Below are positions 17,596-54,098 of a stretch of DNA of 64,000 nt, in pieces. This DNA is from Sulfurovum sp. XGS-02 (GTDB lineage Bacteria > Campylobacterota > Campylobacteria > Campylobacterales > Sulfurovaceae), in NCBI RefSeq assembly GCF_023213175.1, contig NZ_CP093312.1:1674001-1738000 (forward strand). Reading direction: 5' to 3'. The first letter of the stretch is position 1. Every line of letters starts with the position of its first letter. A model generated the notes under the pieces. That model worked only from the letters and a program-made list of their open reading frames with translations. It did not search any database and was not told the origin of the DNA. The position numbers and the translations under genes are program-made.

Positions 17596-18610
17596 TGTAA
17601 AAGGCTATATATCATCAAACTTCACCAAGTCGTTTTTGACGATATTTCTGCCATTTTTCATTATTATATCTCTCGTATTTTTTGTAAAAATATCCTCACT
17701 TACTTCTAAAATACAGATCAGCTTTGCAGAATTGATCCTCCTGTACAGTTATTCTGTACCAGAGATCATTTTTTATACGATACCCCTCTCTTTTGTCGCT
17801 GCTTTGGCAAATGTACTGATCAACCTCTCTCAAGGCAATGAACTCATTGCACTCTATGCACTCGGACTGAAAGCAAAAAAGATACTCAACAGTCTGCTAC
17901 TTCTCGGCCTTCTCTTTTCACTCCTATTGGCCAGTATCTCTTTTCTGGCTATGCCATTGAGTAAACAGTTCTATAAAGCCTTCAAAGAAGAGAAGAGGAA
18001 TGAAGCAAAACTGAACATCGTTCCTGGTGAACTGGGTCAAAAGTTTGGAGACTACTATATGTATGTCAAAGAGAAAACAGGTGATACTTTTCATGATATC
18101 GTTATCTATAACCGCACAAATAAAGCAGATGAACAGTTCTTTTCATCCCAGACGGGTGAGATCAACAACTATGAAAATGTGACGTCCCTGCTTCTGCATA
18201 AGGGGTATGGATACACGTATGCAAAAACCAAATTGCAGCAGGCAGAGTACGAAACCATGGAAGTGTTTGACAGGTCACAAAGTCATGGGTTTGAGTTTCA
18301 GAGTATCCTCTCCTATTGGAGTGAAGGGAAAGAAAGTAAAGAGAAGGTCATGCACAGGATCCTATTTTATGTTTTCACGAGCCTCATTCCTCTGCTTTCG
18401 GTGTATCTTGTTGCATCTTTTACCATGATCAACCCCCGTTATCAGCAGAACCGTTCATTTCTCATTATCTTTGTCACAACTCTCTTCTTCTATGTCATCG
18501 CATCCTCTTTAGAGAAATGGGGAAATCCTCTTATCTTGATCCTTACTATCTCTATGGTTGAGATACTCGGGCAGTGGCTCTTTAAAAAACGTGTAGCCAA
18601 GTACTTCTAA
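17588..18610 (+). CDS. lptF: LptF/LptG-family lipopolysaccharide export permease
   Basis: Inner-membrane permease of the LptB2FG transporter that extracts LPS. The 340-residue form starting MVNVKGYISSNFTKSFLTIF (ATG 17588, 8-nt overlap with the peptidase gene) has the family N-terminal helix; a longer frame from 17537 lies inside the upstream gene. Three N-terminal membrane segments, a periplasmic region (~residues 130-250) and three C-terminal segments are seen. F versus G is not certain from sequence alone. It is 10 bp before truA. Confidence 0.85.
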   Translation: MVNVKGYISSNFTKSFLTIFLPFFIIISLVFFVKISSLTSKIQISFAELILLYSYSVPEIIFYTIPLSFVAALANVLINLSQGNELIALYALGLKAKKILNSLLLLGLLFSLLLASISFLAMPLSKQFYKAFKEEKRNEAKLNIVPGELGQKFGDYYMYVKEKTGDTFHDIVIYNRTNKADEQFFSSQTGEINNYENVTSLLLHKGYGYTYAKTKLQQAEYETMEVFDRSQSHGFEFQSILSYWSEGKESKEKVMHRILFYVFTSLIPLLSVYLVASFTMINPRYQQNRSFLIIFVTTLFFYVIASSLEKWGNPLILILTISMVEILGQWLFKKRVAKYF

Positions 18611-18620
18611 GGGCCTTTCT

Positions 18621-19346
18621 ATGCGTGTAAAAGCTGTGATCAGTTATGATGGGAGCCGCTATCAAGGCTTTCAAAAACAAAAATCTACCAAATTGACCAT
18701 CACTGCTGACATAGAGGAAGCACTCTCCTCTTTGCAAATAGATTCACCTATCATCGGGAGTGGAAGAACGGATGCCGGTGTCCATGCTACGGGTCAGGTC
18801 ATACACTTTGATCTGCCGGATTTCTGGTATGACCTGGAGAAACTCAAACACAATGTAAACCGAAAATTGACAGATATTTCTTTTAAACATATCTCTGTTG
18901 CTAGCAATGATTTTCATGCTCGATTCAGTGCGAAAAAAAGAGTCTACCGTTATGTCTTTAAAACACATAAACCTTCTGTGTTTGAACAAAAATATATTTC
19001 ATATTATAAAACGTTCGATCCTGTTGTACTGATCAATGCACTTAAAACATTTGAAGGGAAACATGATTTTAACTTCTTTCATAAGACAGGTACCATCACA
19101 CATACTACCGTTCGGGAGATCTATCGTACCGATTATGTAGAACGTAACGGGTACCATTTCATATATTTCCAAGCCAACGGCTTTCTACGTTCTCAAGTAC
19201 GTATGATGGTGGATGCAGCGATGCTTTGTGCCAGAGGTGAACTGAGTTTAACACAACTTCAAGAACAGCTACAATGCCAAAAAAAGCACACCACCAGACT
19301 CGCTCCTCCTGAAGGGCTTTATCTGGCACGAATCATCTATAAATGA
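18621..19346 (+). CDS. truA: tRNA pseudouridine synthase A (positions 38-40)
   Basis: Isomerises uridines 38-40 in the anticodon arm. Catalytic Asp is D51 in GSGRTDAGVHATGQV. SYDGSRYQGFQ at the N-terminus, YRYVFKTHKPSVF and FLRSQVRMMV are family features. At 241 aa length is standard. Last housekeeping gene of the glmU-coaBC-uppS-peptidase-lptF-truA run. Confidence 0.96.
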   Translation: MRVKAVISYDGSRYQGFQKQKSTKLTITADIEEALSSLQIDSPIIGSGRTDAGVHATGQVIHFDLPDFWYDLEKLKHNVNRKLTDISFKHISVASNDFHARFSAKKRVYRYVFKTHKPSVFEQKYISYYKTFDPVVLINALKTFEGKHDFNFFHKTGTITHTTVREIYRTDYVERNGYHFIYFQANGFLRSQVRMMVDAAMLCARGELSLTQLQEQLQCQKKHTTRLAPPEGLYLARIIYK

Positions 19347-19413
19347 CCCTTTTCATTTTCTATCTGCATTTTTTTGTTAGAATGTCATAAGAAGACAGTA
19401 AAGGATCTAATTT

Positions 19414-19767
19414 TTGAAAAAACTCTTTATTTTAACTACCCTCTTATATTTTTCCTATGCAAACAGCGAAATGGAAGCACTCTATCTGCAAAACGGATGT
19501 AACGGATGCCATGGTATGTATGGTGAAGGTATGGGCGCGTCTCCCAGACTACAAGGGATACGGGAAGACATATTACTCAGAAGACTTAAAGATCTACAAA
19601 AAGGAAAGACCCGTTCTGCTTTTGGTACCATCATGATATCATTTGCCAAAGCACTGGATGAAAATCAGACCAGAGAGATGGCAAAGTATCTTTCAAATTT
19701 AAAAACAGATGTAGATGATGAACGATATGAGATAGAGTATACACCCGCCGGAGACGGCGGATCATAA
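19414..19767 (+). CDS. Small monoheme cytochrome c
   Basis: Exported class I-type cytochrome c of 117 aa. A signal peptide (about 1-16) is followed by one CNGCH heme site (C29/C32/H33) and a probable axial Met in the C-terminal half (MISFAKALDENQTREMAKYLS). The start codon is TTG, placed 8 nt after AAGGA; there is no nearby in-frame ATG. Preceded by a possible extended -10 (TGTTAGAAT, near 19374). Likely a periplasmic electron shuttle; partner unknown. Confidence 0.85.
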   Translation: MKKLFILTTLLYFSYANSEMEALYLQNGCNGCHGMYGEGMGASPRLQGIREDILLRRLKDLQKGKTRSAFGTIMISFAKALDENQTREMAKYLSNLKTDVDDERYEIEYTPAGDGGS

Positions 19768-19783
19768 GCTAAAAGATAGCTGC

Positions 19784-20533
19784 TTAATGTGTAGCAATTT
19801 CGGGCTGTACCATCTCTTCGGGCATGCCTTCTACCTGTAATGGTTCTGCTTCTTTTTGCACTTCAGTTTTTACACTTTCTGTGATGGTCTCAACAGGGGT
19901 AGTCTCTACGGCTGTTTTTGCTTCAGTCTGCGTAGTATTTGTTTCCACAGTCTCTTCGCTCTTGGCTTCAGCAGAAGATTTCATCTCTTCAAGTTCTTCT
20001 GTCGTTTCATCAAGTTCTTCTTGAACATCAAAGAGTTCATCATCAAGTACTTTGACCTGTTCAACATTCAGACCATGCTTATAGACAAGTTCTCCACCCT
20101 CTTCACCTTGTTCAAAAATACCTGCAACAAATGCGATAAGAATGACGATATATATGGCTCTTATAACACTTTTCTCGGTAAGCATGGAGATCAGTTTAAA
20201 CAGTAAGATAACCCCTGATGCCAACATCAGGTAAGTCCCTAAGTTTTTGTGCGCAGCAAGGGCTTCTTTCGCCACATCATTCAATGCAGGATAGGCTTCT
20301 TTCCCATCTACCAGTCCTGTAAAATATGCACCAACCGCCGCAACTACAGTTAAAAGGATCAAAAAGAGAGACATACCGCTTATTGCTTTCTTTCTCATCA
20401 CTAAATTGACAAGCTCCAACAAGAGGATCACTACAGGCAAAGCGATGACAAAATGGTCTACAACAGGGTGCCATAAAACCGGGATATCAAACGGAAGTTC
20501 TATTTTTGGTAATGTGATAGTCGGTAACTGCAT
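19784..20533 (-). CDS. DUF2231-like membrane protein with acidic coiled-coil tail
   Basis: Four to five membrane segments in residues 20-155, beginning WHPVVDHFVIALPVVILLLE (the His-Pro...His-Phe pattern of DUF2231 proteins). A charged GEEGGELVYKHG linker then leads to a Glu/Thr-rich coiled-coil or disordered tail to residue 249. DUF2231-type proteins often sit with cytochromes and may bind heme through the membrane histidines, but function is unproven. It follows hemJ on the same strand with a 67-bp gap and faces the small cytochrome gene. Confidence 0.7.
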   Translation of the reverse strand: MQLPTITLPKIELPFDIPVLWHPVVDHFVIALPVVILLLELVNLVMRKKAISGMSLFLILLTVVAAVGAYFTGLVDGKEAYPALNDVAKEALAAHKNLGTYLMLASGVILLFKLISMLTEKSVIRAIYIVILIAFVAGIFEQGEEGGELVYKHGLNVEQVKVLDDELFDVQEELDETTEELEEMKSSAEAKSEETVETNTTQTEAKTAVETTPVETITESVKTEVQKEAEPLQVEGMPEEMVQPEIATH

Positions 20534-20600
20534 ACTACTCTCCTTTTTCTAATCTATTTCTTTTTCTAAGATGATAGCGATTGATTATAACACAAATGGA

Positions 20601-21035
20601 TTAAAAGGGTTTAACCACCACCATAATCACGATAAATATCATCAGAAGAGTCGGTACCTCATTATAGATCCTGAAGTATTTACTGCTTTTATAGTGTGGA
20701 TTTTCTATAAGTGTTCTGCGAATACGCTCCAAAGAGAAATGATAGGCTATAAGGAACGCGAGAAGCAGCAGTTTGGCATGCATCCATCCGCCGCTTGAAA
20801 AAATACCCGAATTCAGATAGAGCATAAAAGCACCAGAGATGATCGTTGCCCACATCGCCGGTACACCTATATACTTAAAAAGTTTATACTCTTGAATTTC
20901 CACAATATCGGTAAATGCTTTCGTATCAGCATTTTCACGATGATAGATGAACAGTCTCGGCAGATAAAACAACATCGCCATCCAGGAGACAAAGCTCATC
21001 ACGTGAAATGCCAACATCCAACTATAATATGCCAT
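20601..21035 (-). CDS. hemJ: Protoporphyrinogen IX oxidase HemJ
   Basis: Membrane enzyme oxidising protoporphyrinogen IX to protoporphyrin IX in heme synthesis. 144 aa with four membrane helices. Family landmarks are the early His (WMLAFHVMSFVSWMAMLFYLPRLF), the AMWATIISG helix, GGWMHAKLLL and YFRIYNEVPTLLMI. HemJ is the form used by Campylobacterota in place of HemG or HemY. It begins 2 bp after the EEP-family gene stop, so it is probably in its transcript. The window is rich in cytochromes that need its product. Confidence 0.9.
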   Translation of the reverse strand: MAYYSWMLAFHVMSFVSWMAMLFYLPRLFIYHRENADTKAFTDIVEIQEYKLFKYIGVPAMWATIISGAFMLYLNSGIFSSGGWMHAKLLLLAFLIAYHFSLERIRRTLIENPHYKSSKYFRIYNEVPTLLMIFIVIMVVVKPF

Positions 21036-21037
21036 AT

Positions 21038-22594
21038 TTACTCCAATATCTCAAAATCTTTTTTATTGTAGATCACTACTTGTAGCTTCTTATAATAACC
21101 AAGATGTGCATAGTGTATCTTTAGACGGCTGCCATTTGCAGGGGTAAATTTCTTCTTTTTAAAATAGAGAGGAACCTTTTTATCATTGAAATACAAAAAT
21201 TTATTTTTATAGATACCCGAGATCTCTTTGAGTACTTCGTTCTGCGGTATTTCATTAGATGCAAAAGTATCACCGCTCAGCATATATTGTTCACTCTCTA
21301 CTACACCTTTGTCTTTTAAGCTGTAGGCATGGGTGATCTCTTTTAACCCATGATAGGTTTTGATGCCTTCTACAAGGAGATCATACTTGTGCCCTTCTTG
21401 TAATCTGCCTGCACAGCCGTACAGATAAATGCCTCGTCCCTGCATACGCTGTTTTACGACGGCATTACGGCCTCTTTTCAATACCACTACGACATTTTCA
21501 AGTTTGATCTTCCCTTCCAAAGCCTCTATGTTATAGAGATCCTCGATGCTTTTTGTTTCTACTCTTTTCAGAGCTCTTTTTTTCTCTTCAGCGATATAAG
21601 ACTTGGTATCAAAATAGGCATAGACAGGGAGATGGTCAGAATAGCCTTTTGCCCTGTGTTTACCGTTTTTATACTCCCATTTGTTGATGTACCCTCTCTT
21701 TGTAAAAAGGTAAGATCTTTTAAAGACTTTAAAAGAGTTGTTGACATAATCCACCCCTTGACCATCGAACATCTGTCTGGGAAGGACGATCTGGTCCAGA
21801 CTGGATTTTTTCCCGTAGAACTTATGGCTCCAGCGCTGATCTACCGGCAACTCCTTCCATAAGGTATAGTGTACACCCTTATCTGCTTTTAGCATCTCCT
21901 CTTCTTCCACAAGATAGGCGCCTACTTTGGTTTTTAGTACATCATTGAATGCCGTTTTACCATACGTATCGTTGATCTTGTTTTCTAATGTCAGGTAAGC
22001 ATTATGATCACTGTTAAAATCACCCAATATGATGTACTCTTTTGTCTCAGGCATCTGTGCGATACGTGACTGCAGGGCTTTGGCATACTTGATACGTTTG
22101 CTCTCATACCCATGATAGGCCTTGGATTTCCAATGGTTCACAAACAATGTTAGCGGGGTCCCTTTGATATCTACCTCCACTTCCAATATATTTCTCACAC
22201 CTGCAGCCGTACTCACCGCTATCTCGTTTTGTTTTGCAATAGGGTAACGTGATAACAGTGCCACTTGGATCGGTGCATTCTTTTTATGGGTGATGGCCGA
22301 ATATCCATAGGGGCATCCCACTCTCTTCAGCCTTGTCATCAGCTGTTGGAGTATATGATCGTTCTCGATTTCCTGAAGCCCCAGGATATCTGCATCAAGA
22401 TCACAGATGACCTCAGCTGTATGGTTCAGTTTGATGTCTACCATACGTTGTGTCCAGTTGTGTTTTACCGTGTAGTCATCATATTCCGTACCAACATACT
22501 CTGCATCAAAAAGGTTTTCCACATTATAGGTGGCTACTTTAAAAGGTTTGGAAAATACAAAAATGGGTAGTAAAAATAAAAGTAAATATCGCAC
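21038..22594 (-). CDS. Secreted endonuclease/exonuclease/phosphatase-family protein
   Basis: 518 aa with a signal peptide (about 1-15). The EEP domain spans residues ~18-330: FKVATYNVENLFD, a metal Glu in LGLQEIEND, NHWKSKAYHG, the catalytic ILGDFNSDHN and C-terminal SDHLPVYAYF. The extra ~190-residue C-terminal region includes an OB-like stretch (KLENVVVVLKRGRNAVVKQ), suggesting nucleic-acid contact, as in extracellular nucleases. Periplasmic or secreted DNase is likely; a phosphodiesterase on another substrate remains possible. Confidence 0.82.
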   Translation of the reverse strand: MRYLLLFLLPIFVFSKPFKVATYNVENLFDAEYVGTEYDDYTVKHNWTQRMVDIKLNHTAEVICDLDADILGLQEIENDHILQQLMTRLKRVGCPYGYSAITHKKNAPIQVALLSRYPIAKQNEIAVSTAAGVRNILEVEVDIKGTPLTLFVNHWKSKAYHGYESKRIKYAKALQSRIAQMPETKEYIILGDFNSDHNAYLTLENKINDTYGKTAFNDVLKTKVGAYLVEEEEMLKADKGVHYTLWKELPVDQRWSHKFYGKKSSLDQIVLPRQMFDGQGVDYVNNSFKVFKRSYLFTKRGYINKWEYKNGKHRAKGYSDHLPVYAYFDTKSYIAEEKKRALKRVETKSIEDLYNIEALEGKIKLENVVVVLKRGRNAVVKQRMQGRGIYLYGCAGRLQEGHKYDLLVEGIKTYHGLKEITHAYSLKDKGVVESEQYMLSGDTFASNEIPQNEVLKEISGIYKNKFLYFNDKKVPLYFKKKKFTPANGSRLKIHYAHLGYYKKLQVVIYNKKDFEILE

Positions 22595-22649
22595 ATCATA
22601 TCCCGTAGTTTTAACACTATTCTAGCGAAGTATGAAAAGAATACGATAA

Positions 22650-22668
22650 GTATGACATATTGTCATAC
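22650..22668. promoter_or_regulatory. 19-bp operator-like palindrome
   Basis: GTATGACATATTGTCATAC is perfect (8-bp arms, 3-bp centre), located 56 bp upstream of the EEP-family gene in the divergent gap. Form and size fit a dimeric repressor or CRP/FNR-like site, but it matches no consensus I can name. Confidence 0.5.
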
Positions 22669-22694
22669 AAAGAATATAAACATTGAGATTAAAA

Positions 22695-22723
22695 ACCTTA
22701 TAAAATATATAATTTTATAAGGT
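22695..22723. repeat. AT-rich inverted repeat, copy 1
   Basis: ACCTTATAAAAT (22695-22706) and ATTTTATAAGGT (22712-22723) with a 5-bp centre. Similar sequence recurs at 25282-25296 (one arm) and 25902-25946 (both arms), bracketing the SHOCT-SDR-crotonase-DUF6713 segment. Confidence 0.6.
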
Positions 22724-22820
22724 ATTAAAGCAGATATTCTGTCTGACTATAGATCCATTTCTTACTAAAAGAGACCATTACTATAATTTATTATTATAAA
22801 ATTTCATTTATATAAATATA

Positions 22821-22834
22821 TTTTGATATACTCT
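22821..22834 (+). promoter_or_regulatory. Extended -10 promoter of SHOCT gene
   Basis: TTTTGATATACTCT holds an extended -10 (TGA then TATACT). The same 14 bases occur at 25310-25323, and the leaders that follow are similar (an ACTTTxTTGTTCxTTT-like block, then ATAAGGA ribosome site) with nearly equal distance to the ATG (79 and 85 nt). Confidence 0.6.
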
Positions 22835-22912
22835 ATAGAAGAACTTTTTGTTCTTTTCAGAGATAGTCAGACCATATCAAATGGTAGATAAAACCATAAG
22901 GAGGAAACGACT

Positions 22913-23176
22913 ATGATAGCAGATCAACCTTGTATGTGGCATGGGGGAGGAATGTGGATTTTCCCTATGCTTATGTTCGTAATTATGATTATCATCTTCT
23001 TTGTATTTTTTGGACGTGGCCACGGAGGCTGCCGAGTACCGTGGTGGGGACCAGAAGGATATTACAAAAAAGGTGAAGAAACGGATTCAGCCTTAGAAAT
23101 ATTGAAAAAGAGATATGCGAATGGAGAGATTACAAAGGAGGAGTTTGAACAGATGAAAAAGGATATCCTTAGTTAA
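22913..23176 (+). CDS. Small SHOCT-domain membrane protein
   Basis: 87 aa. An N-terminal hydrophobic helix (about 15-35, MWIFPMLMFVIMIIIFFVFF) is followed by a Gly/His/Trp-rich stretch and a C-terminal SHOCT motif (ALEILKKRYANGEITKEEFEQ). SHOCT modules are small oligomerisation or recruitment segments; the protein's role is not known. Strong AAGGAGG ribosome site 8 nt before the ATG. Confidence 0.8.
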   Translation: MIADQPCMWHGGGMWIFPMLMFVIMIIIFFVFFGRGHGGCRVPWWGPEGYYKKGEETDSALEILKKRYANGEITKEEFEQMKKDILS

Positions 23177-23192
23177 GGATGTATACCTTATA

Positions 23193-23292
23193 TTTTAAAG
23201 AGCGTCGATGAGTGAAGTTGTGAGTGACCACGGACGCTCACGGGTTTCTCTATCCTTCCAATATAAGTATCTCAACGTAATACTCTTTAAAA
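23193..23292. terminator. Nested inverted repeats between convergent genes
   Basis: TTTTAAAGAG (23193-23202) pairs with CTCTTTAAAA (23283-23292). Inside, GAGCGTC (23200-23206) pairs with GACGCTC (23233-23239). Just upstream, ATCCTTA GT TAAGGAT (23165-23180) overlaps the SHOCT stop codon. Probably the shared terminator region of the SHOCT gene and the convergent SDR gene. Confidence 0.45.
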
Positions 23293-24096
23293 CCTGGCCA
23301 TTAATTTTTGCCAGGTCATAGGGATAAGACGACTTATGAACTCGTAAAAATTAGCGTCCGGCCCTACCAGGATACTAGGTTTATTTTTCTTAATGCCTTT
23401 AATGATTATCTTTGCAGCTTTGTCAGGAGAGATCCAGCATACATATTTTTCAAACCTCGCTGCTTCATCCTCTTTAGAGAGTTCAGGCTGTGAAATCTTG
23501 TAGAATCTTTCGTTCTTCACAATGTTGGTACGCACTCCACCCGGGTATACACAAGAGACATTGACGTTAGAATTTCTTAGCTCCTGGGCCAATGTCAAGG
23601 TAAATCCCCGCACGGCAAATTTACTGGTACAGTATGGGCCGCTGTTGGGGTTAGTAAAAAAGCCTTGTACACTTGAGATGTTGACAAGGTTGGCTATGGG
23701 CTCTTTTTTCAAATACGGAAGGAATGCTTTACAGCCGTATATGACACCGTAAAGGTTGATACCCATCAGCCAATCGAAATCTTCATAAGTGACATCTTCT
23801 AGTGTCTCTTTCAGTTGTACACCTGCATTGTTGATAACGATGTCTACCTTGCCAAAGGCTTCGATCACTTCATCGGCAAAACGATAGACACGTTCTTTGT
23901 CGGAAACATCTACCCGGTATCTTCTGGCCTCTACATTTTTATCTTCAAGCAGTTTGAGAGTTTCGACCAAACCTGTTTCATCCACATCAGCCAAAGCCAG
24001 AGAACATCCTTCTTTTGCCAGGTTGATAGCCAGCCCGCGGCCGATACCGGAGCCCGCGCCGGTAATGACGGCTACTTTACCCCTTAGATCCCGCAT
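23287..24096 (-). CDS. Short-chain dehydrogenase/reductase
   Basis: Classical SDR of 269 aa. Cofactor loop TGAGSGIGRG (residues 13-22), an acidic residue after strand 2 (D37 in ALADVDE) favouring NAD(H), the NNAG motif at 89-92, and the catalytic set S142, Y155 and K159 (YCTSK). The C-terminal region (KAAKIIIKGIKKNKPSILVG) is typical of acyl- or lipid-related SDRs. It starts 3 nt after the crotonase stop, so the two form an operon and probably act on the same acyl-chain substrate, for example hydration then oxidation or reduction. Substrate unknown. Confidence 0.85.
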   Translation of the reverse strand: MRDLRGKVAVITGAGSGIGRGLAINLAKEGCSLALADVDETGLVETLKLLEDKNVEARRYRVDVSDKERVYRFADEVIEAFGKVDIVINNAGVQLKETLEDVTYEDFDWLMGINLYGVIYGCKAFLPYLKKEPIANLVNISSVQGFFTNPNSGPYCTSKFAVRGFTLTLAQELRNSNVNVSCVYPGGVRTNIVKNERFYKISQPELSKEDEAARFEKYVCWISPDKAAKIIIKGIKKNKPSILVGPDANFYEFISRLIPMTWQKLMARF

Positions 24097-24099
24097 CTT

Positions 24100-25080
24100 C
24101 TATTCTCCTTTGAAGTCTGTCAGATTACCACTATTAAGGTCATCATAGAGCTCGAACCGTTTTTCCGGTTCCACACCTTTGAATTGGGAGGCGACACGGG
24201 TCACGTAGGCTTTCATACCACGGCCCGCATCTTCAGAGTTCATGGCTGTAAGTGCTCCAGCCATTTCCAATACTTGCCCCTTGGACCAGTCCATCCGGCT
24301 GCCCTTTCGTACCGATCTACGGATGCATGCCTGTGCTATGGGGGCTCCACGTGAGAGTTTTTTAGCCAGCTTCATGACTGTAGGCATTAATTCATCCGGT
24401 GGAAGGGCATGGTTGATCAGACCCATCGCTTCTGCTTTGGATGGAGGATAGATCCCACCGGTCATTAGCATCTCCATAGCTCTGCCTTCTCCAATGATAC
24501 GTGGAAGCCGAAGCGGTGTACCTGTTCCCCCGGGTGTGATACCTAGTAGTACTTCTGGCAGTCCTATACGGTAATTATCGCCATCGGCCATATATCGAAA
24601 ATCACAGCAAAGAGAGATCTCACAACCGCCGCCAAGTGCCAAGCCGTTGATCGCTGCGATTACAGGCTTAGGAAAGTTCTCGAGGATCTGCAGACAACGG
24701 CTCCAGTAAAAAATACTCTGTTCACCATTGGAACGCTTTTGTGTGTGTTTTAGGACCATACGCTCAAGCCAGGACCATCGATCCATTTTGTCAAACAGCC
24801 AGCAAAGAAAATAAGCAGCCATACGGTTGGCAACGGAGGACCTTTTTTTGGCGATAGCGTTGTGAAAGTCTATGAGATCATCAACATCGTAATGGGTAAG
24901 AAAGGTATCTTCCAGACCGCCGCTGAGTACCATAACCCGTATAGAATCATCATCACGGTCTTTGAGAAGCTGGTCATATAGTTCACGCAGCATAGTAAGG
25001 GTTATATAGTTATACGGTGGATTGTAGAACTCAATGGTCCGTACAGTGTCTTCTTTTTTTATCTTGATCTGTTCGTTCAT
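24100..25080 (-). CDS. Enoyl-CoA hydratase/isomerase (crotonase) family protein
   Basis: Crotonase-fold enzyme. The start at 25080 (MNEQIKIKKED) follows GGAG at 6 nt; the frame extends further upstream, but that part is hydrophobic and lacks a ribosome site. In the 326-residue form both catalytic-type glutamates are present: E154 in ALGGGCEISL and E176 in GLPEVLLGITPGGTG. An unusual ~40-residue insert (residues 75-115, rich in Trp and Arg) precedes the oxyanion region. No other beta-oxidation genes are nearby, and such genes are uncommon in Campylobacterota. Looks acquired together with the SDR. Confidence 0.82.
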   Translation of the reverse strand: MNEQIKIKKEDTVRTIEFYNPPYNYITLTMLRELYDQLLKDRDDDSIRVMVLSGGLEDTFLTHYDVDDLIDFHNAIAKKRSSVANRMAAYFLCWLFDKMDRWSWLERMVLKHTQKRSNGEQSIFYWSRCLQILENFPKPVIAAINGLALGGGCEISLCCDFRYMADGDNYRIGLPEVLLGITPGGTGTPLRLPRIIGEGRAMEMLMTGGIYPPSKAEAMGLINHALPPDELMPTVMKLAKKLSRGAPIAQACIRRSVRKGSRMDWSKGQVLEMAGALTAMNSEDAGRGMKAYVTRVASQFKGVEPEKRFELYDDLNSGNLTDFKGE

Positions 25081-25281
25081 GCATAACTCCAAAATTAGAA
25101 TTGTGATAACCATAACTTCAATACTTAACAGCCATACCAAATATAATAGGAAATACACCGATCAACCATTGATTAAAGAAACAAAATACCAATCGATCGT
25201 GTATAGCAATATTAAGAGTATATCAAAAGTGTCTTGATATAAAAAAAATATCTTCGATGGAAGACCATCATAAAGTTATAT

Positions 25282-25296
25282 ATTTTATAAGGTTTT
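25282..25296. repeat. AT-rich repeat arm, copy 2
   Basis: ATTTTATAAGGTTTT repeats the right arm of the inverted repeats at 22712 and 25933. The left arm here (around 25265-25276) is degenerate. It sits 14 bp upstream of the extended -10 at 25310. Confidence 0.5.
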
Positions 25297-25309
25297 GGAT
25301 GTGAGCTAT

Positions 25310-25323
25310 TTTTGATATACTCT
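25310..25323 (+). promoter_or_regulatory. Extended -10 promoter of DUF6713-like gene
   Basis: TTTTGATATACTCT, identical to 22821-22834, with extended -10 TGA then TATACT, 85 nt before the ATG. Spaced between crotonase and this gene the region is otherwise AT-rich, with no other feature seen. Confidence 0.55.
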
Positions 25324-25407
25324 TACTATTGAAATATCATATGTAGAAAAACACTTTGTTCCTTTAATTAAATAGTTATGAGAACAAAGAGTATAATAAG
25401 GAAACAA

Positions 25408-25779
25408 ATGCTCACTGATACTATTTTTTATATCGGTATAGTACTTCTGTTAACTCACGAACTTGACGCCATTTCATCTCATGAATGGAGGATGTTTCCT
25501 TTTATACACCGACTTGAAGAAAGTCTTGGGTATCGGATTTTTGTTATACTTCATATACCTCTACTGCTATTAATCTTCTGGGCTATAACGCACTCGTCAG
25601 AGAGTATGCGTTATAGGTTTCAGATTATTATGGATATTTTTCTCATACTCCATCTGGGAATTCACTATTTATTTAGATCACATCCCAAAAATGAATTTAC
25701 TGGGACATTTTCATTATCACTCATTGTTTTGACTGCAATGGTAGGGGCTACACATTTGATACTGCTTTTTTTTGGCTAA
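25408..25779 (+). CDS. Small four-helix membrane protein (DUF6713-like)
   Basis: 123 aa from the ATG at 25408, which follows AAGGAAA at 5 nt; an earlier in-frame ATG at 25378 lacks a ribosome site. Four hydrophobic segments, with THELDAISSHEWRMFP after the first helix and the Arg-rich ESMRYRFQ loop. The His-Glu-Leu-Asp-Ala...Glu-Trp-Arg signature is what I associate with DUF6713; function unknown. Its promoter and leader resemble those of the SHOCT gene. Confidence 0.6.
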   Translation: MLTDTIFYIGIVLLLTHELDAISSHEWRMFPFIHRLEESLGYRIFVILHIPLLLLIFWAITHSSESMRYRFQIIMDIFLILHLGIHYLFRSHPKNEFTGTFSLSLIVLTAMVGATHLILLFFG

Positions 25780-25901
25780 AACATCTTCCAGTTCCTTAAC
25801 AATATTTAAGAAGTCATTGAAGAAAAAATCTTCGATAATCCAAATAGCTATTTTAATGCAGTATAAACGAAAAACTTAATACACAAATTTCACAAAAAAT
25901 A

Positions 25902-25946
25902 AAAACCTTATAAAATGTTCTATATTAGTAGTTTTTATAAGGTTTT
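25902..25946. terminator. Bidirectional terminator / inverted repeat, copy 3
   Basis: AAAACCTTATAAAA (25902-25915) and TTTTATAAGGTTTT (25933-25946) form a perfect 14-bp stem with a 17-nt loop between two convergent genes. A-rich on one side and T-rich on the other, so it could stop transcription both ways. Shares its core with copies 1 and 2. Confidence 0.6.
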
Positions 25947-25977
25947 CGCATGATCAGATACATATCATCTAAGATGC

Positions 25978-26424
25978 TTATCTGAACATCTTGCCCAGCA
26001 TCTCCATAGCCCCATTAGGTCCACCGGCATTAGAGAGCATTTCATCCATGACCGTCGCTTCTCCTCTTGTTGCCATATCTACGACCTTAGGTATGACATC
26101 AGCTAAAGCACCTGCTGCACTCTCTTGAGAGATGCCAAGATCTGAAGCAAAGGTGTCAATGTTATCGGCACCCAGAAGTGTTGTGATCTGCTCCAGGGAG
26201 ATAGGTCTGTTTTCACCATTACCTAGCCATGATCCTACGATCTCACCCAAACCATTTTGAGACAATCCGCCTACAAATTTTACAAGATCAAGTCCACCCT
26301 GACCATTTCCTACAAGCGTATTAAGCGCATTAGCGATATCCTCTGCATCTAATCCGGCCGTTGCTTCATCGCCATTGCCTTGTATCATAGATGCAGCTAC
26401 TTTTAATAAATCCATTAATTCCAT
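25978..26424 (-). CDS. YidB-like (DUF937) protein
   Basis: 148-residue soluble protein related to E. coli YidB. The diagnostic stretch is GGLSQNGLGEIVGSWLGNGENRPISLEQITTLLG (residues ~48-81), quoted here by its key parts GLGEIVGSWLGNG and NRPISLEQI, followed by a helix with SAAGALADVIPKVVDM. A Gly/Asn/Met-rich end follows. Role unknown in the family. Preceded by cvfB on the same strand with a 33-bp gap. Confidence 0.75.
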   Translation of the reverse strand: MELMDLLKVAASMIQGNGDEATAGLDAEDIANALNTLVGNGQGGLDLVKFVGGLSQNGLGEIVGSWLGNGENRPISLEQITTLLGADNIDTFASDLGISQESAAGALADVIPKVVDMATRGEATVMDEMLSNAGGPNGAMEMLGKMFR

Positions 26425-26457
26425 ATTTTTTCCTTTATGATTTCACTCATGAGACTA

Positions 26458-27318
26458 TCACAATAAAACGATTGCATCATCTGTTAATTCTATTTTTTTA
26501 CTTTCTATCAGTTCTGTCAACGTACGTTTGAAATTTTTCTTGCTCATGCCAAAGACCTTTTTGATCTCTTCTGCATCACTTTTATAGGTAAAAGGCAACG
26601 TACCATCCGCTTCTTTCAACAGTTGCAAGATATTGCCTTGAGCCTGACTTAACGCTGCTTGTTTTCCAATGGGCTGTAACGAAAGGTCTAACTTATAGTC
26701 TTTTCTCACCTTTTTGATATAGACTTCTTTACGGTCGCCTACACGTATCTCTTCAAAAATCTCATTGTCAAAAAGCATGCCTTCGTACTGGTTATCGGCT
26801 ACGACTTTATACCCCAACGGTGTCTTAGCCAGAACAATGGCATCCAGCTTTTTGTTCTGATGCAGACCGCTCATGTCCCTGTTGAAATATTTGCCTATTT
26901 TCTGTGTACCGTAGAGACGACCCGTCTGCTCATCCAGACAGACACGTAACAGATACTTTTTACCGATATTAAAATACTCTTTTTGCTGTGAAAGAGGAAC
27001 GAAAAGATCTTTAGGAAGTCCCCAGTTCACAAATGCACCGTAAGACTTGTAATCCACGACCGTAAAGTAGCCGTACTCTCCAAGTTTTGCATAAGGCATT
27101 TTGGTGGTTGCTACAGGACGGTCTTCACTGTCGGTATAGACAAAGACATCTATCAGTGCACCTATAGGCATCTCATCTTCCATGACATAGACATTGGGGA
27201 GCAGTACTTCACTGTCATCTTTTGCCTCTAAAAACAAACCGTAGTCCGTATCTCTAGCGACTTCGAGGGTATTGATCTTTCCGATCTCTATATGCAGGTT
27301 TTTTGATTTTTCATTCAT
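26458..27318 (-). CDS. cvfB: CvfB-family S1 RNA-binding protein
   Basis: 286 aa with S1-like OB domains at the N-terminus (KINTLEVARDTDYGLFLEA; TVVDYKSYGAFVNWGLPKDLFVP), a third S1-like part (DAIVLAKTPLGYKVVADNQYEG begins it) and a C-terminal winged helix (GTLPFTYKSDAEEIKKVFGM then KKNFKRTLTELIE), the CvfB/YitL layout. Start chosen at ATG 27318 (MNEKSKNLHIEIGKI) with GGAA 8 nt upstream. The longer frame to 27390 would run through a TATAAT box and a palindrome. Likely RNA-linked regulator; targets unknown. Confidence 0.82.
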   Translation of the reverse strand: MNEKSKNLHIEIGKINTLEVARDTDYGLFLEAKDDSEVLLPNVYVMEDEMPIGALIDVFVYTDSEDRPVATTKMPYAKLGEYGYFTVVDYKSYGAFVNWGLPKDLFVPLSQQKEYFNIGKKYLLRVCLDEQTGRLYGTQKIGKYFNRDMSGLHQNKKLDAIVLAKTPLGYKVVADNQYEGMLFDNEIFEEIRVGDRKEVYIKKVRKDYKLDLSLQPIGKQAALSQAQGNILQLLKEADGTLPFTYKSDAEEIKKVFGMSKKNFKRTLTELIESKKIELTDDAIVLL

Positions 27319-27340
27319 GTGTGTTATTCCGTTTCTTTGT

Positions 27341-27376
27341 ATTGTGATATACTCACAATGTGATAGTGACATTATA
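27341..27376 (-). promoter_or_regulatory. cvfB promoter with operator-like palindrome
   Basis: Minus-strand TATAAT at 27376-27371, then a perfect palindrome ATTGTGATATACTCACAAT (27341-27359, 7-bp arms, 5-bp centre) just past the expected transcription start and 22 bp before the ATG. The position suits a repressor site or a leader hairpin. Confidence 0.55.
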
Positions 27377-27447
27377 GCTGAATAATCCACTAACCTGTAC
27401 TACTATTTACTGCAGAAGGATATCCACCCTTCTACATGCAAACTCGA

Positions 27448-28695
27448 TCAGTATTTATAATCGAACATTACCCAGTATTTATTCGTATCTACATAAGTCG
27501 TTGCAGCATCACCTTTTGCATACATTGCACCTTTGAGCATCATATTTACATCTTTCATCACTTTTTTCGTGTAGACGATATCGAACTCTGAACCGTAATC
27601 GACACTTCCTGCATCACTGTCAAACTTATGATACACACCCAGTATCTTTCCAAATGTTTTATCTCCGTATCCCAGTTTGACAGAGATATCTTCAAGACCG
27701 TCAGCAGGTGTAGCTAGGAACATATCTGCCCACCCGTTATGTGCATGCAGTGTGGCAAGCGGTGTACTAAATGGACTTGCACCGCTTCCAGCTTCTCCCA
27801 ACACTTCATAACATGCACCCGCAGTAAACCCGTGGTGACTCCCGCTCAATCCAAATCTGTAGTAGTCGGCATCCTGCTCAGGTTCAGCATCATTGAATGG
27901 TGCACTCTCTTCAGTGAGTGACGGATCCATCTGTTTCGCATACTCTGCCATGTAGTTCAGTTTCACCCCATTGTCCAGTGTAGTTCCCCCTGTTGCCCTG
28001 ATACCGACATGGTCCGCAAAACTTGCAACCATATAATCATAAGCAGTAATGGTCAACTCAGGCATAGCTTTATAAGAAGCATGCAATAATACTGTATTGG
28101 TATCAAAATCCGGGGTTTTTAGTCCGCCTAGTTCTCTGTCGAAAATTCTATTGACACCCCAAACATATGCGGCCATGAGGTCAAGCTTCTCTATACCCTT
28201 ATATGCTACGGATGCCAGATCATAAGTCTGTGGCATCTGTCTCCAGCCTACTGTTCCTATAAATCTCATATTATCTAAATTGACACCTTTTCGTCCTACC
28301 ATACCGACGAAACCATCTTTGGCATAGGAGAGATTTGCCTGAGTGACTCTCGTCTGCTCACCATCTGCAACCACAGAATATTCTGCACTTTCTGGTGCAT
28401 AATTGTCCGCACCGAAATTGCTTACATTGGTCATTTCCAATTGTGCTGCCAACCCATCAACACCCAATGTATCAAATTTCGCTCCAAGCACTGTTCTCAC
28501 CGTAAATGCATTGGCATTCTCTTTGGCATTGTCTTGATCTACAAATTCATATCTTGGTCTGATCTGAAGAGAGTACTTCCCATTACTCAATATCTCTGAT
28601 ACACTGTTTACTTCTTCTGCTTGCGCTACAGAAGTGGTTCCCATCATCACACTCATTGCAGCGATAGCAATATAACTCATTTTGCTCATTTTCAT
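27448..28695 (-). CDS. Opr-family outer membrane porin
   Basis: 415 aa. Signal peptide of ~26 residues (ending TSVAQA), then alternating beta-strands across the whole length and a terminal aromatic strand (YWVMFDYKY). Pattern of the Campylobacterota Opr/OprD-like porins: YSLQIRPRYEFVDQDNAKENA near the N-terminus, GAKFDTLGVDGLAAQLEM and repeated Y/W-rich turns. General outer membrane channel; solute unknown. Upstream, TGATAAC is repeated with 8-bp spacing (28733-28747), possibly a regulator site. Followed by a 57-bp gap to cvfB's region. Confidence 0.82.
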   Translation of the reverse strand: MKMSKMSYIAIAAMSVMMGTTSVAQAEEVNSVSEILSNGKYSLQIRPRYEFVDQDNAKENANAFTVRTVLGAKFDTLGVDGLAAQLEMTNVSNFGADNYAPESAEYSVVADGEQTRVTQANLSYAKDGFVGMVGRKGVNLDNMRFIGTVGWRQMPQTYDLASVAYKGIEKLDLMAAYVWGVNRIFDRELGGLKTPDFDTNTVLLHASYKAMPELTITAYDYMVASFADHVGIRATGGTTLDNGVKLNYMAEYAKQMDPSLTEESAPFNDAEPEQDADYYRFGLSGSHHGFTAGACYEVLGEAGSGASPFSTPLATLHAHNGWADMFLATPADGLEDISVKLGYGDKTFGKILGVYHKFDSDAGSVDYGSEFDIVYTKKVMKDVNMMLKGAMYAKGDAATTYVDTNKYWVMFDYKY

Positions 28696-28906
28696 ATTTT
28701 ACGTTCCTTGTCTTGTAATATTTGTACAAAAATGATAACATGATAACCACAATTTATAATCAACATAATGGTTAATTTTTAATCATTATAGGATAGTAAT
28801 AAATAAATTCAGTGAATGATACTCCCCCTAGGAGCATCATAGGAACCATATAAAATTCAATGATCAGGTGTAGAAAAATGCTTTATACAGCAAGAAGTAT
28901 GAGAGT

Positions 28907-30694
28907 TTATTGCGTGATACTCTCTAAATGTGTGGCAAAATCTGCAGGAGGAACAAACCCTGTCAAGCTCTTTTCAGGCAAATAGTTATTTGTTTTATCA
29001 AAAAAGATGATGTTCGGTGTACCGAAAAGTTCAAACTTCTTCAGTAATGCTTTGTCGGCATCCGTATTGTCAGTGAGGTCTATCTTGATAAATGTGAAGT
29101 TTTTAAGATGTTCTTGTACACGTGGATCCGGGAACGTAATCTCTTCAAGTTCTGTACATGCAGTACAAGACTTTTTACCAAAGTCCACCACTACAGGCTT
29201 CTCTGACTCACGTACCTCTTTCATAAGGCGCTCGACACTATAGCCTCTGTGACTCTCTTTCTCTACACTCATTGATACACTGTTTGCTGCACCAATATGC
29301 ACCTGTGTAAATCTTTCAAAAGGTCTGAGCATTGAACTTGCGCCGCTTATCCCGCCGATGAAGAGTGATACCCCGTAAAGTAAGAACACCATAGCCAAGA
29401 GCTGAAGGAGTTTCTTTGCACCTTGTGTCGCGCTGCTAGGATTAAAGACTCCCATATAGAGTGCCGTACCTATCAGCAACAATGCCCACAATATCATCGT
29501 AAGACCCTCGGGGAGTATACGTGAAAGCATAAAGATTCCAAGACCCAGCATCATCACACCAAACGTTTGAGAAACCGCTGTCATCCATCCACCAGGTTTT
29601 GGCATAAATTTACCTGCTCCCAGTCCCACGATAAGCAACGGCATACCCATACCGATACTCATGATAAAGAGTGCCGACCCGCCCAAAAGTGCATCACCCG
29701 TATGGGAAATGAACAGTACCGCCCCGCCAAGCGGTGGTGCTACACACGGCCCGACGATCAGTGCAGAGAGTAGACCCATAATAGACGTACCCACGATACC
29801 TTTACCTTGGGCATTGTCGCTTACACTGCTCAATTTTGACTGCCATGAAGCGGGAAGTCCGATCTCATAATATCCAAATAGGGAAAATGCCAACGCTACG
29901 AACATCGCTGCAAAAAGCGTCAGGACCCAAGGTGTTTGCATCGCGGCCTGTATATCTGCACCGACCAGTCCCGCTATGATCCCTACAGCCGTATAGGTCA
30001 GAGCCATAGAAACCACATAGACCAAAGAGGTAAAAAATGCCTGGGCTACGCTTGGTTTTTCATTGCCTCCCTGCTGTGAAACGATGATTGATGACAAGAT
30101 AGGTATCATAGGGAAAATACATGGTGTCAAAGATAACAATAAACCAAAAATAAAGAAAAGAAGCAAGATGAATATGGAACTTTCATTCACCAAAAGATCT
30201 GCTATTTTTGCTGTATTCCCCTCTTTTAAAGATTGTGATATCTTGTCGAACAGACCGAGTTCTTCTCCTTTGAAATCAAAGGTTTTTTTAATAGGTTGAT
30301 AGCAGATACCTGCATCTGAACATCCCTGAAACTCGATCTCAATAGTGTAGTCACCTTTCACTTTGGAGGTGATCTCTTTTGTAGGAATGGTGACAAGCAC
30401 CTCTTTTTCATACACCATATCACCATCAAAATCATGTGCTTGTGGTTTTGTAACCGTCAATTCTAAAGATGAGGGAGAAATGATTCTATAGATCAATGTG
30501 TCTTTATAGACATGGATCTTATCTGCCATGATGATCTTGGTTTCTATCGCATCCTCTTTGAGTACAGCACTCACTTGAAATGCTTCCTCCGGCGATAAAA
30601 ACTTCTGTTTTTTCAATACACTCTCAAAACCTGCAGATGCAAATGTACTGAAAATGAAACTCAATAAGAGTAACTTTTTTACTAAATCATTCAT
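28907..30694 (-). CDS. dsbD: Thiol:disulfide interchange protein DsbD
   Basis: 595-residue inner-membrane protein carrying reducing power from cytoplasmic thioredoxin to the periplasm. All six working cysteines are visible: C125/C131 in the N-terminal domain (GCSDAGICYQP), C192 and C317 in the membrane core (LTPCIFPMIP and VGPCVAPPLGG), and C510/C513 in the C-terminal thioredoxin domain (KKSCTACTEL). Signal peptide 1-21. Supports cytochrome c maturation and other periplasmic reductases, fitting the cytochromes nearby. Divergent from the YyaL-type gene. Confidence 0.95.
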   Translation of the reverse strand: MNDLVKKLLLLSFIFSTFASAGFESVLKKQKFLSPEEAFQVSAVLKEDAIETKIIMADKIHVYKDTLIYRIISPSSLELTVTKPQAHDFDGDMVYEKEVLVTIPTKEITSKVKGDYTIEIEFQGCSDAGICYQPIKKTFDFKGEELGLFDKISQSLKEGNTAKIADLLVNESSIFILLLFFIFGLLLSLTPCIFPMIPILSSIIVSQQGGNEKPSVAQAFFTSLVYVVSMALTYTAVGIIAGLVGADIQAAMQTPWVLTLFAAMFVALAFSLFGYYEIGLPASWQSKLSSVSDNAQGKGIVGTSIMGLLSALIVGPCVAPPLGGAVLFISHTGDALLGGSALFIMSIGMGMPLLIVGLGAGKFMPKPGGWMTAVSQTFGVMMLGLGIFMLSRILPEGLTMILWALLLIGTALYMGVFNPSSATQGAKKLLQLLAMVFLLYGVSLFIGGISGASSMLRPFERFTQVHIGAANSVSMSVEKESHRGYSVERLMKEVRESEKPVVVDFGKKSCTACTELEEITFPDPRVQEHLKNFTFIKIDLTDNTDADKALLKKFELFGTPNIIFFDKTNNYLPEKSLTGFVPPADFATHLESITQ

Positions 30695-30763
30695 TATTTT
30701 CTCTTTTATATTAAACTTTTATAGTATTCTATTGTACTATTCGTGTATACGCTGTGTAATATT

Positions 30764-30776
30764 ACCAATAATTGGT
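30764..30776. promoter_or_regulatory. Small palindrome in dsbD/yyaL divergent gap
   Basis: ACCAATAATTGGT is a perfect 13-bp palindrome 18 bp before the plus-strand ATG. Too short to assign. Confidence 0.3.
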
Positions 30777-30794
30777 TAACAATAAAGGTTAAAA

Positions 30795-32726
30795 ATGGCA
30801 AATCATCTTAAAAATGAGCACTCCCCTTACTTACAGCAACATGCTGACAATCCTGTAGACTGGTACCCTTGGGGAGAAGAAGCCTTTGAGAAAGCACGAA
30901 AAGAGAACAAAGCGATCTTTCTTTCCATAGGGTATAGCTCTTGCCACTGGTGCCATGTCATGGAAGATGAGTCTTTTAAAGATGAAGCGACTGCAAAGAT
31001 CCTGAATAAACATTTCATTGCAGTCAAGGTAGACAGGGAAGAGCGTCCGGACATAGATAAACATTTTCAAGAGGTCTACCAGCTGATGAACCAGCGTCCT
31101 GGAGGTTGGCCTACTTCCATCTTTTTAACACAGGAACAAAAGCCTTTTTACTCAGCCACCTACATACCTGATGAACCGCGTTACGGGATGATGAGCTTTT
31201 CAAGTCTACTCGAGGTCATTGCTGACAAATACAGCAAAGAGAAAGCGCTGCTTACTGAAAAAGCCGATGAGATACTCCGTTTCCTCAATCCAAAAGAAGA
31301 CAGGATACAAGCTACAAAACTGGACCTAAGTATCATTCCAAGGGTCTCAGATCAGGCCAAACAACTCTTTGATAATACGAACGGCGGCTTTAACAAAGCA
31401 CCTAAATTCCCTCAGGCATCCATGCTTGATCTACTTTTGGACCTCTACCGTATCACCGGAGATAAAGAGACACGGGAGATGGCGCTTCACTCACTCACCT
31501 GTATGGCCAAAGGCGGATTGAGAGATCTTGTAGAGGGTGGTTTCTGCCGCTACTCTACCGATAATGAATGGCTCGTACCCCATTTTGAAAAGATGACATA
31601 CGACAATGCCCTGCTGGCAGAGGTCTACCTCAAAGCCTATCATGTCAGTGGCAAGGATTTTTACAGATCTGTTGCTTTTGAAACGATAGACTTTATGATA
31701 CAAAATAGGAGTGAAGAGGGCCTTTTCTACTCTGCCTCGGATGCCGATACGGAAGGAGAAGAGGGTAAATACTTTGTCTATACCTATGAAAAGGCTTTAA
31801 AGTCTTTTGATAAAGCCGGTATCCCAAAAGAGGAGCATGCTGCACTTGCCGAGGCACTGCATATCACAGAAGAGGGAAACTTTGAAGGCAAGAACATCGT
31901 TCGTATAGATGACCCCGCACAATGCGACATTCCTTACTATGATGAAGCGATACAGGCACTGAGAAAACGCAGAGAAAAGCGTACCCATCCTTTCATAGAC
32001 AAAAAAGTACTTGTCTCATGGAATGCCATGATGATCAAAACACTTTTCAAAGCCTCCCGTACAGATAATGCCTACCTCAAACCGGCTATCAGATCTCTGG
32101 ATGCATTGCTGGAGAGTATGTATATCAATTCTGAACTCTTTCACTCTACACTGATGGGTAAAAAACCGAAGATCAAAGCATTTTTGGAAGATTATGCCTA
32201 TCTTGCGGAAACGCTCATCGAAGCGTATCAGAGTACGCTTGATGAGACCTATCTTATGACGGCAACCAAACTGGCGAACAGTGCCATTGAAAAGTACTTT
32301 GACCAGGGAAAATGGAAGTTCTCACGCGGAGAGTTTGAAACCAATGCGGACATTTATGACAGCTCCTACCCTTCTTCCGTTGCTACCATGATCTCAGTAC
32401 TCTATAGCATCTCATCCTTGGTGGATACCGTCTATAAAAAGTTCGTCTTTAAAACGCTGGAGATCTATTCTTATGATATCATGCGCCAACCCATCTCTAC
32501 TCCGCGTATGAGCCGTATGGTGATCCGTTATCTCAAAGATGATGTCATTATCAAAGCCAAAGAGGATGCACTTAAGACACATATCAATGACCTAGATACC
32601 CTTCCTCACCCTTTCTCACTTTTGAAAAATGACACCAATGAGGGTTTTATGCTCTGTAACTCCAACAGCTGTTTTGGGCATGAAAAAGATTTTAAAGGGA
32701 TCATCGAAATATTAGAGAAGCGTTAA
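30795..32726 (+). CDS. YyaL/SPATA20-type thioredoxin-domain protein
   Basis: 643 aa. The N-terminal DUF255 (DsbH-like thioredoxin) domain starts [20 protein letters not shown], has the redox-type C50-H-W-C53 in [11 protein letters not shown] and a REERPD motif. An (alpha/alpha)-barrel resembling N-acylglucosamine epimerases or glycosidases fills residues ~190-600 ([43 protein letters not shown]). No signal peptide, so cytoplasmic. Biochemical role of the family is unknown. Its stop codon shares one base with the apbE start. Confidence 0.88.
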
Positions 32727-54013: not shown

Positions 54014-54098
54014 TGGTGCGTCAGAGAGGATTTGAACCTCCACACCCGTAGGGCACTACCCCCTCAAGGTAGCGTGTCTACCGTTCCACCACTGACGC
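54014..54098 (-). tRNA. tRNA-Leu (anticodon GAG)
   Basis: 85-nt class II tRNA with encoded CCA. Acceptor GCGTCAG pairs with CTGACGC; discriminator A. D-arm has the usual Leu TGGTGGAAC-GGTAGACACG pattern. Anticodon stem CTACC/GGTAG with loop TTGAGGG gives GAG. A long variable arm and a T-arm with GGTTCAAATCC follow. Lies downstream of atpE on the same strand, beyond its terminator. Confidence 0.95.

Follow-up and report, generated by a model that had tools for sequence, protein, structure and literature searches.

Integrons set a divergent integrase gene beside a primary recombination site and carry arrays of small cassettes between short palindromic sites; integrase-less arrays exist as well, and array content differs among relatives. 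These are features that recur in the arrays described below. Stand-alone tyrosine recombinases of the FimB/FimE kind are about 190–200 amino acids long, consist of the catalytic domain only and invert DNA between inverted sites. In the dif modules of Acinetobacter plasmids, gene modules lie between short two-arm sites and encode no recombinase of their own, a plan that the present arrays also resemble. Here we analyse a 64,000-nucleotide stretch of the Sulfurovum sp. XGS-02 genome (G000; 2,193,079 bases), positions C1:1674001-1738000, hereafter the window. A first-pass annotation of this stretch had drawn attention to related inverted repeats around four accessory genes, encoding a SHOCT-domain protein, a short-chain dehydrogenase (SDR), a crotonase and a DUF6713 protein. 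We consider it probable that these palindromes serve as recombination sites for a Sulfurovum gene-cassette system that resembles an integron.

A gene segment bounded by palindromic sites is absent from two relatives

Two kinds of site were distinguished. B sites are palindromes of ~35 bp at cassette boundaries, with the near-palindromic consensus AAAACCTTATAAAATATATAACTTTATAAGGTTTT, while A elements of ~128 bp stand at one array end and comprise an outer hairpin (A1), then ~47 nt containing a small hairpin, and then a core, A2 (AACCTTATAAAATATGTTAGATTATAAGGTTTT). Along an array the order is A, genes, B, genes, B. The left half CCTTATAAAATAT is common to A2 and B, whereas the right halves differ (GTTAGAT or ATAACTT, then TATAAGG). 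In a rarer C form a B site is joined across ~22 nt to an A-type right half; the boxes of this form read ATATAAC ... GTTAGAT. B itself has no GTTRRRY box. Among 55 distinct copies, the five pairs of the small hairpin of A (TCGCTAYAGCGA) are each conserved in 46 to 54, in part as wobble pairs, and because double-sided changes are rare the covariation is weak. A nine-codon reading frame in A was dropped as a candidate because its start is not kept, as judged by eye.

Re-examination of the window sequence showed that inverted repeats are present at all three positions that had been noted, although their description has to be revised. Of the two copies called complete, the left one is a 35-bp near-palindrome of the B kind, whereas the right one is of a different kind, with a longer centre, and matches the A1 hairpin only. 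What had been taken for a single arm at 25282-25296 is in fact an entire site with one arm decayed (Table 1). By its sequence the left site is oriented opposite to the remainder of its array. For the A1 hairpin a plus-strand match was obtained too (E 7e-6), its minus orientation having been assigned separately.

The locus (window 20601-27400) was compared by blastn with 24 relatives. In G004, matches to window 20601-22668 and 25971-27386 are separated by 7 bp, and in G005 a match ending at 22668 and one starting at 25977 are separated by 9 bp; both genomes have an empty site where the window carries the segment. In G003 the segment is replaced: a glutaminase gene lies between the retained left B site and a site of the A2 type further right. 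At the middle site, G003 has the left-half side in common with the window and not the right-half side. Relatives of all four cargo genes lie together elsewhere in G003 (C1:373116-375910, 83-89%) with a B site at the end, SDR and crotonase at C1:373116-375075 (88%) and SHOCT at C1:375093-375449 (83%), and a second DUF6713 cassette at C1:399232-399698 shows an 88% DNA match that starts in the middle of a B site. The presence of this cargo at other places in G003 marks this part of the window as a cassette segment, in keeping with the suggestion of the first-pass annotation that the repeats are the marks of an integrated segment.

Table 1. Features of the cassette segment, in window coordinates.
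Feature	Position	Strand	Basis
Complete cassette segment	22669..25970	.	absent in G004 and G005
B site, 35-bp near-palindrome, outer left segment boundary	22692..22726	+	aligned with G003 left backbone
SHOCT-domain small membrane protein gene, cargo	22913..23176	+	Pfam SHOCT 3.6e-13
Short-chain dehydrogenase (SDR) gene, cargo	23287..24096	-	Pfam adh_short 2.9e-53
Enoyl-CoA hydratase/isomerase (crotonase) gene, cargo	24100..25083	-	Pfam ECH_1 5.3e-43
B site separating the crotonase from the DUF6713 cassette, with an intact left and a decayed right half	25262..25296	-	site comparison
DUF6713 gene, cargo	25408..25779	+	Pfam DUF6713 3e-28
A1 hairpin, outer half of attI-like A element, without A2 core	25902..25946	-	nhmmer, A model positions 1-46, E 1.2e-4

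Two further observations concern the same locus. In G012 (L189:2618-3388) a Y1-transposase gene occupies the place of the cassettes (PF01797 match at G012:C45:32650-32982, 62.9 bits), indicating that the locus takes other insertions too. Upstream of the exo/endonuclease gene, a separate palindrome, TATGACA-n3-TGTCATA (window 22652-22668), is preserved with few changes in G003, G004 and G005 and looks like an operator. A search against Rfam families returned a tRNA gene at 54017-54098 as the sole match in the window and none in five array loci.

The sites lie mostly in gene arrays and recur in the genus

The window holds four exact copies of ACCTTATAAAAT, whereas 200 first-order resamplings of it yielded 0.035 on average and never more than 1. 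Genome-wide, exact AACCTTATAAAA has 34 occurrences and the reversed control 2. The copies are mostly clustered in gene arrays; a random scatter at gene ends would have spoken for ordinary terminators. G000 has fourteen loci with sites and nine A elements, some of them decayed, near C1:156.5k, 225.5k, 687.9k, 1023.8k, 1093.2k, 1107.7k, 1355.3k, 2128.2k and 2160.2k. Among the 41 genomes searched, AACCTTATAAAA counts reached 44 in G003, 27 in G012 and 15 in G024 and lay between 0 and 9 in the other 21 members of the genus, while in 16 genomes outside the genus they were no higher than controls. A 29-base form of A2 matched 16 stretches in the GTDB contig collection, 15 from Sulfurovum and one from an epsilonproteobacterium by title; the exact site pattern was not found among IMG/VR viruses. 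Together these sequence comparisons support the view that the repeats are part of a cassette system present in many genomes of the genus.

Of 85 B sites, 22 have within 60 nt a motif resembling AGTATATCAAAA, the reverse of an extended -10 promoter motif, compared with 39 of 1,405 random 60-mers, and cassettes may carry their own promoter. One 8-kb unit of G000 running from a B site to an A element (L036, G000:C1:2120160-2128264) holds, by eye, genes resembling those for cation efflux of the resistance-nodulation-division (RND) type, with a regulator.

Gene content changes at the sites

Eight pairs of loci were compared, of which six, drawn from three genome pairs, are orthologous platforms that carry different genes (L097/L159, L032/L094, L034/L088, L109/L155, L110/L157 and L107/L095), giving variable cassette content at a fixed platform as in integrons. 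On the A side, homology stops to within about 13 bp of an element edge, that of A2 in four of the six pairs and that of A1 in the other two. At the distal end, three pairs (L097/L159, L109/L155 and L110/L157) become homologous again at B or inside it. As for the two remaining pairs, L162/L161 share a 5.4-kb A-to-B unit, mostly 95% identical, whose flanks do not match within the fetched stretches, and the arrays of L037/L090 are not orthologous. G000 and G043 share a 1,012-bp cassette at 95.7% identity in arrays that are not orthologous; in L110/L157, an orthologous pair from the same two genomes, flank identity is 87.5-91%. The 110 distinct proteins bracketed by sites form 12 mutual match pairs (E 1e-8, 60% coverage), three of which are the recombinase described below.

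The sites themselves include hybrids. Once sites showing more than two core changes or three right-half changes had been removed, 151 distinct sites comprised 53 with A halves on both sides, 89 with B halves on both sides, seven with a B left and an A right half and two with the converse; ten B-left sites lack the usual AA ahead of the core. A 3.3-kb segment that is 99.8% identical between two closely related strains follows an A left half in G093 and a B left half in G043, and the identity breaks inside site sequence at both ends. The simplest reading of this comparison would be an inversion of the intervening piece, which carries the recombinase.

These observations bear on a more conventional explanation, namely that the repeats are ordinary palindromes (weak intrinsic terminators, repetitive extragenic palindromic (REP)-like sequences or operators) and that the gene differences arose through homologous recombination or other mobile elements. 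The first-pass annotation had likewise offered operators and terminators as possibilities. The copy at 25902-25946 does lie between convergent genes, and the arms of the repeats could form RNA hairpins; the copy at 22692, however, is flanked by genes that diverge from it. A terminator scan of window 18000-31000, which requires G+C-rich stems, gave no excess (9 against 8.4), and its sole match touching a site (25255-25270, minus strand) falls at the decayed end of the middle site. Neither operators nor terminators account for homology breaks located at the sites, for the exchange of content there or for recombinant half-sites, and both were rejected on position and content exchange. Transposition of the IS200/REP type was rejected because a search of 25 genomes for the Y1 transposase (PF01797) gave matches in 17 of them but none in G000 or G003. 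The explanation by ordinary palindromes was already disfavoured, and we regard it as very improbable. Serine recombinases were also considered: ten genomes, some with arrays and some without, gave one PF00239 match apiece, which hence provides no link to the sites.

In two strains a small tyrosine recombinase gene starts inside the A element

A PF00589 search identified a tyrosine recombinase gene that directly adjoins A in G043. The protein is ~190 amino acids long and nearly all catalytic domain (Pfam match over residues 10-180 of 188, E 9.4e-15), and alignment places Arg, Lys, His-x-x-Arg, His and Tyr at the expected positions. In G043 (C10) and G093 (C2 and C3) the gene starts inside A1 and runs divergently from the cassettes, the arrangement of integrase gene and primary site found in integrons; it was not found in the window genome. 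Among 78 genomes of the genus, intact copies were found in G043, in G093 (twice, 96%) and in G071 (43%), the last with a broken second copy. Six A elements match at least nine of 15 residues of the recombinase 5′ end, three being the intact genes and three stubs (two in G045, one in G055). Two A1-only sites of G003 keep 15-17 codons in the correct place, a weak match (E 0.17 and 0.32). This anatomy ties the recombinase to the sites and makes it the likely enzyme; we infer that site-specific recombination takes place in vivo and is carried out by it. The protein resembles FimB and FimE in length, in its restriction to the catalytic domain and in the inversion between inverted sites that is proposed for it, and differs from them in its association with cassette arrays and with a double site of the attI-like kind.

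The family extends beyond the genus. A profile search of 397 genomes of the phylum, a sample in which the three genus members carrying the recombinase do not appear, detected relatives in 13, all of them in other genera of the order and some partial or with stops, and tblastn found relatives in six plasmid records, two of them from Arcobacter at 43%. By eye, the sequence ahead of the gene shows a second palindrome ~50 nt farther out, as in A, in L267, L269 and L270, three of the ten loci inspected there; no additional copies of the site adjoining the gene were seen in other genera, where palindromes were scanned in five of 14 fetched loci. A search of IMG/VR by close peptide patterns only found no relative of the recombinase. 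In G071 the 43%-identical gene (L248, G071:C45:1-10000) lies, by eye, near ParA-like and DnaB-like genes, neighbours that suggest a plasmid or phage source. A different set of three adjacent tyrosine recombinases, by eye Tn554-like, occurs in G000 at C1:2108.8k-2114k (L112), near the array at 2117k.

In a tree of 24 sequences the small recombinase family is separate from IntI, Xer and the other recombinases included (support 97), and its score against the IntI model TIGR02249 is 26.9 bits, far under the cut-off of 265. These values bear on the idea that B, C and A are divergent attC and attI sites of degenerate classical integrons or of clusters of attC sites lacking integrases (CALINs), worked by past or present IntI in trans. 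True IntI does occur in some Sulfurovum genomes (G009, G012, with two genes, and G015), an A element of G012 lies 17 kb from one of them on a short contig, and the boxes of the C form resemble R'' and R'. Table 1 of PMC10295459, in a machine-read form, lists two CALINs in Sulfurovum sp. NBC37-1, which may be arrays of the kind described here. Against this stands the lack of any TIGR02249 match above the cut-off in G000 and G003, and G009 and G015 carry IntI yet have 0 and 1 exact sites. The sequence 0.3-0.9 kb upstream of the four IntI genes, to the contig ends, contains, as judged by eye, other repeats and no A element. The B sites lack a GTTRRRY box, and it is a different recombinase that starts inside A1. 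Unlike integrons, moreover, the Sulfurovum arrays combine a catalytic-domain-only recombinase with ~35-bp near-palindromic sites that have no R' box, hold genes in both orientations and include nine A elements in one genome. We consider a derivation from classical integrons unlikely.

Sites resembling dif, worked by the chromosomal XerC/XerD as in Acinetobacter dif modules, would be small and two-armed with a short centre, as those found here are, and the two Xer-type recombinases present in both G000 and G003 would explain exchange without the small enzyme. Compared with the NBC37-1 dif sequence, taken from PMC2731167, B and A2 show 16 identities of 28, the mean for shuffled sequences also being 16, and the Xer pair is present as well where sites are scarce or absent, for instance in G009 and G014. 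In contrast to dif modules, the Sulfurovum arrays are chromosomal, their sites are unlike the genus's own dif, and in some strains a dedicated recombinase gene overlaps A. An origin in dif and Xer appears still less likely than one in integrons.

Weighing the proposed cassette system and its mechanism

Several observations weigh against the reading of the palindromes as sites of a cassette system worked by the small recombinase. An intact gene is present in just three of 78 genus genomes and was not found in G000 or G003 despite their many sites, so that the arrays of the window genome may be static or served in trans. G012 combines 27 sites with two true IntI genes. The expected start ATG in G043 reads ATT, eight codons downstream of an ATG that likewise lies in A1 and would be usable as a start. 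Of 44 A elements, no more than 11 passed a loose test for the recombinase 5′ end, a number that includes the three intact genes, and a single-sequence structure model of the protein was unusable (predicted local distance difference test score 35.8). No distal break at B was seen in three of the six orthologous pairs, and the reading gives no explanation for the C-type sites, for array ends that consist of A1 only or for the inverted orientation of the site at 22692.

The cassette system that we favour would work as follows. Each cassette would begin with a right half-site (GTTAGATTATAAGG or ATAACTTTATAAGG) and finish with a left half-site (AAAACCTTATAAAATAT), a complete B site being the junction of two neighbouring cassettes and the A element an attI-like array end. 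Recombination at or next to the common core TTATAAAATAT would excise, insert or invert cassettes. Excised cassettes would leave as circles with one site and re-enter at another, and sites facing each other would lead to inversion of the cassettes between them. On this model arrays without the recombinase, that of the window included, would resemble integrase-less cassette arrays.

Implications

We lean towards the view that this would be a third, independently evolved cassette system beside integrons and dif modules. It would combine a catalytic-domain-only tyrosine recombinase with a dedicated double site of the attI-like kind and cassette sites of ~35 bp, and would have carried accessory-gene arrays to roughly a dozen locations on individual Sulfurovum chromosomes. 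No description of such a system was found among the matches listed in searches of open-licence literature. Integrons are regarded as a single lineage built on one kind of integrase, and the same layout with another recombinase would show that the design arose repeatedly. If the proposal is correct, a small enzyme and simple sites would also become available for comparison with the folded single-strand attC mechanism, and some of the accessory genes carried by a widespread group of sulfur-oxidising bacteria would be explained.

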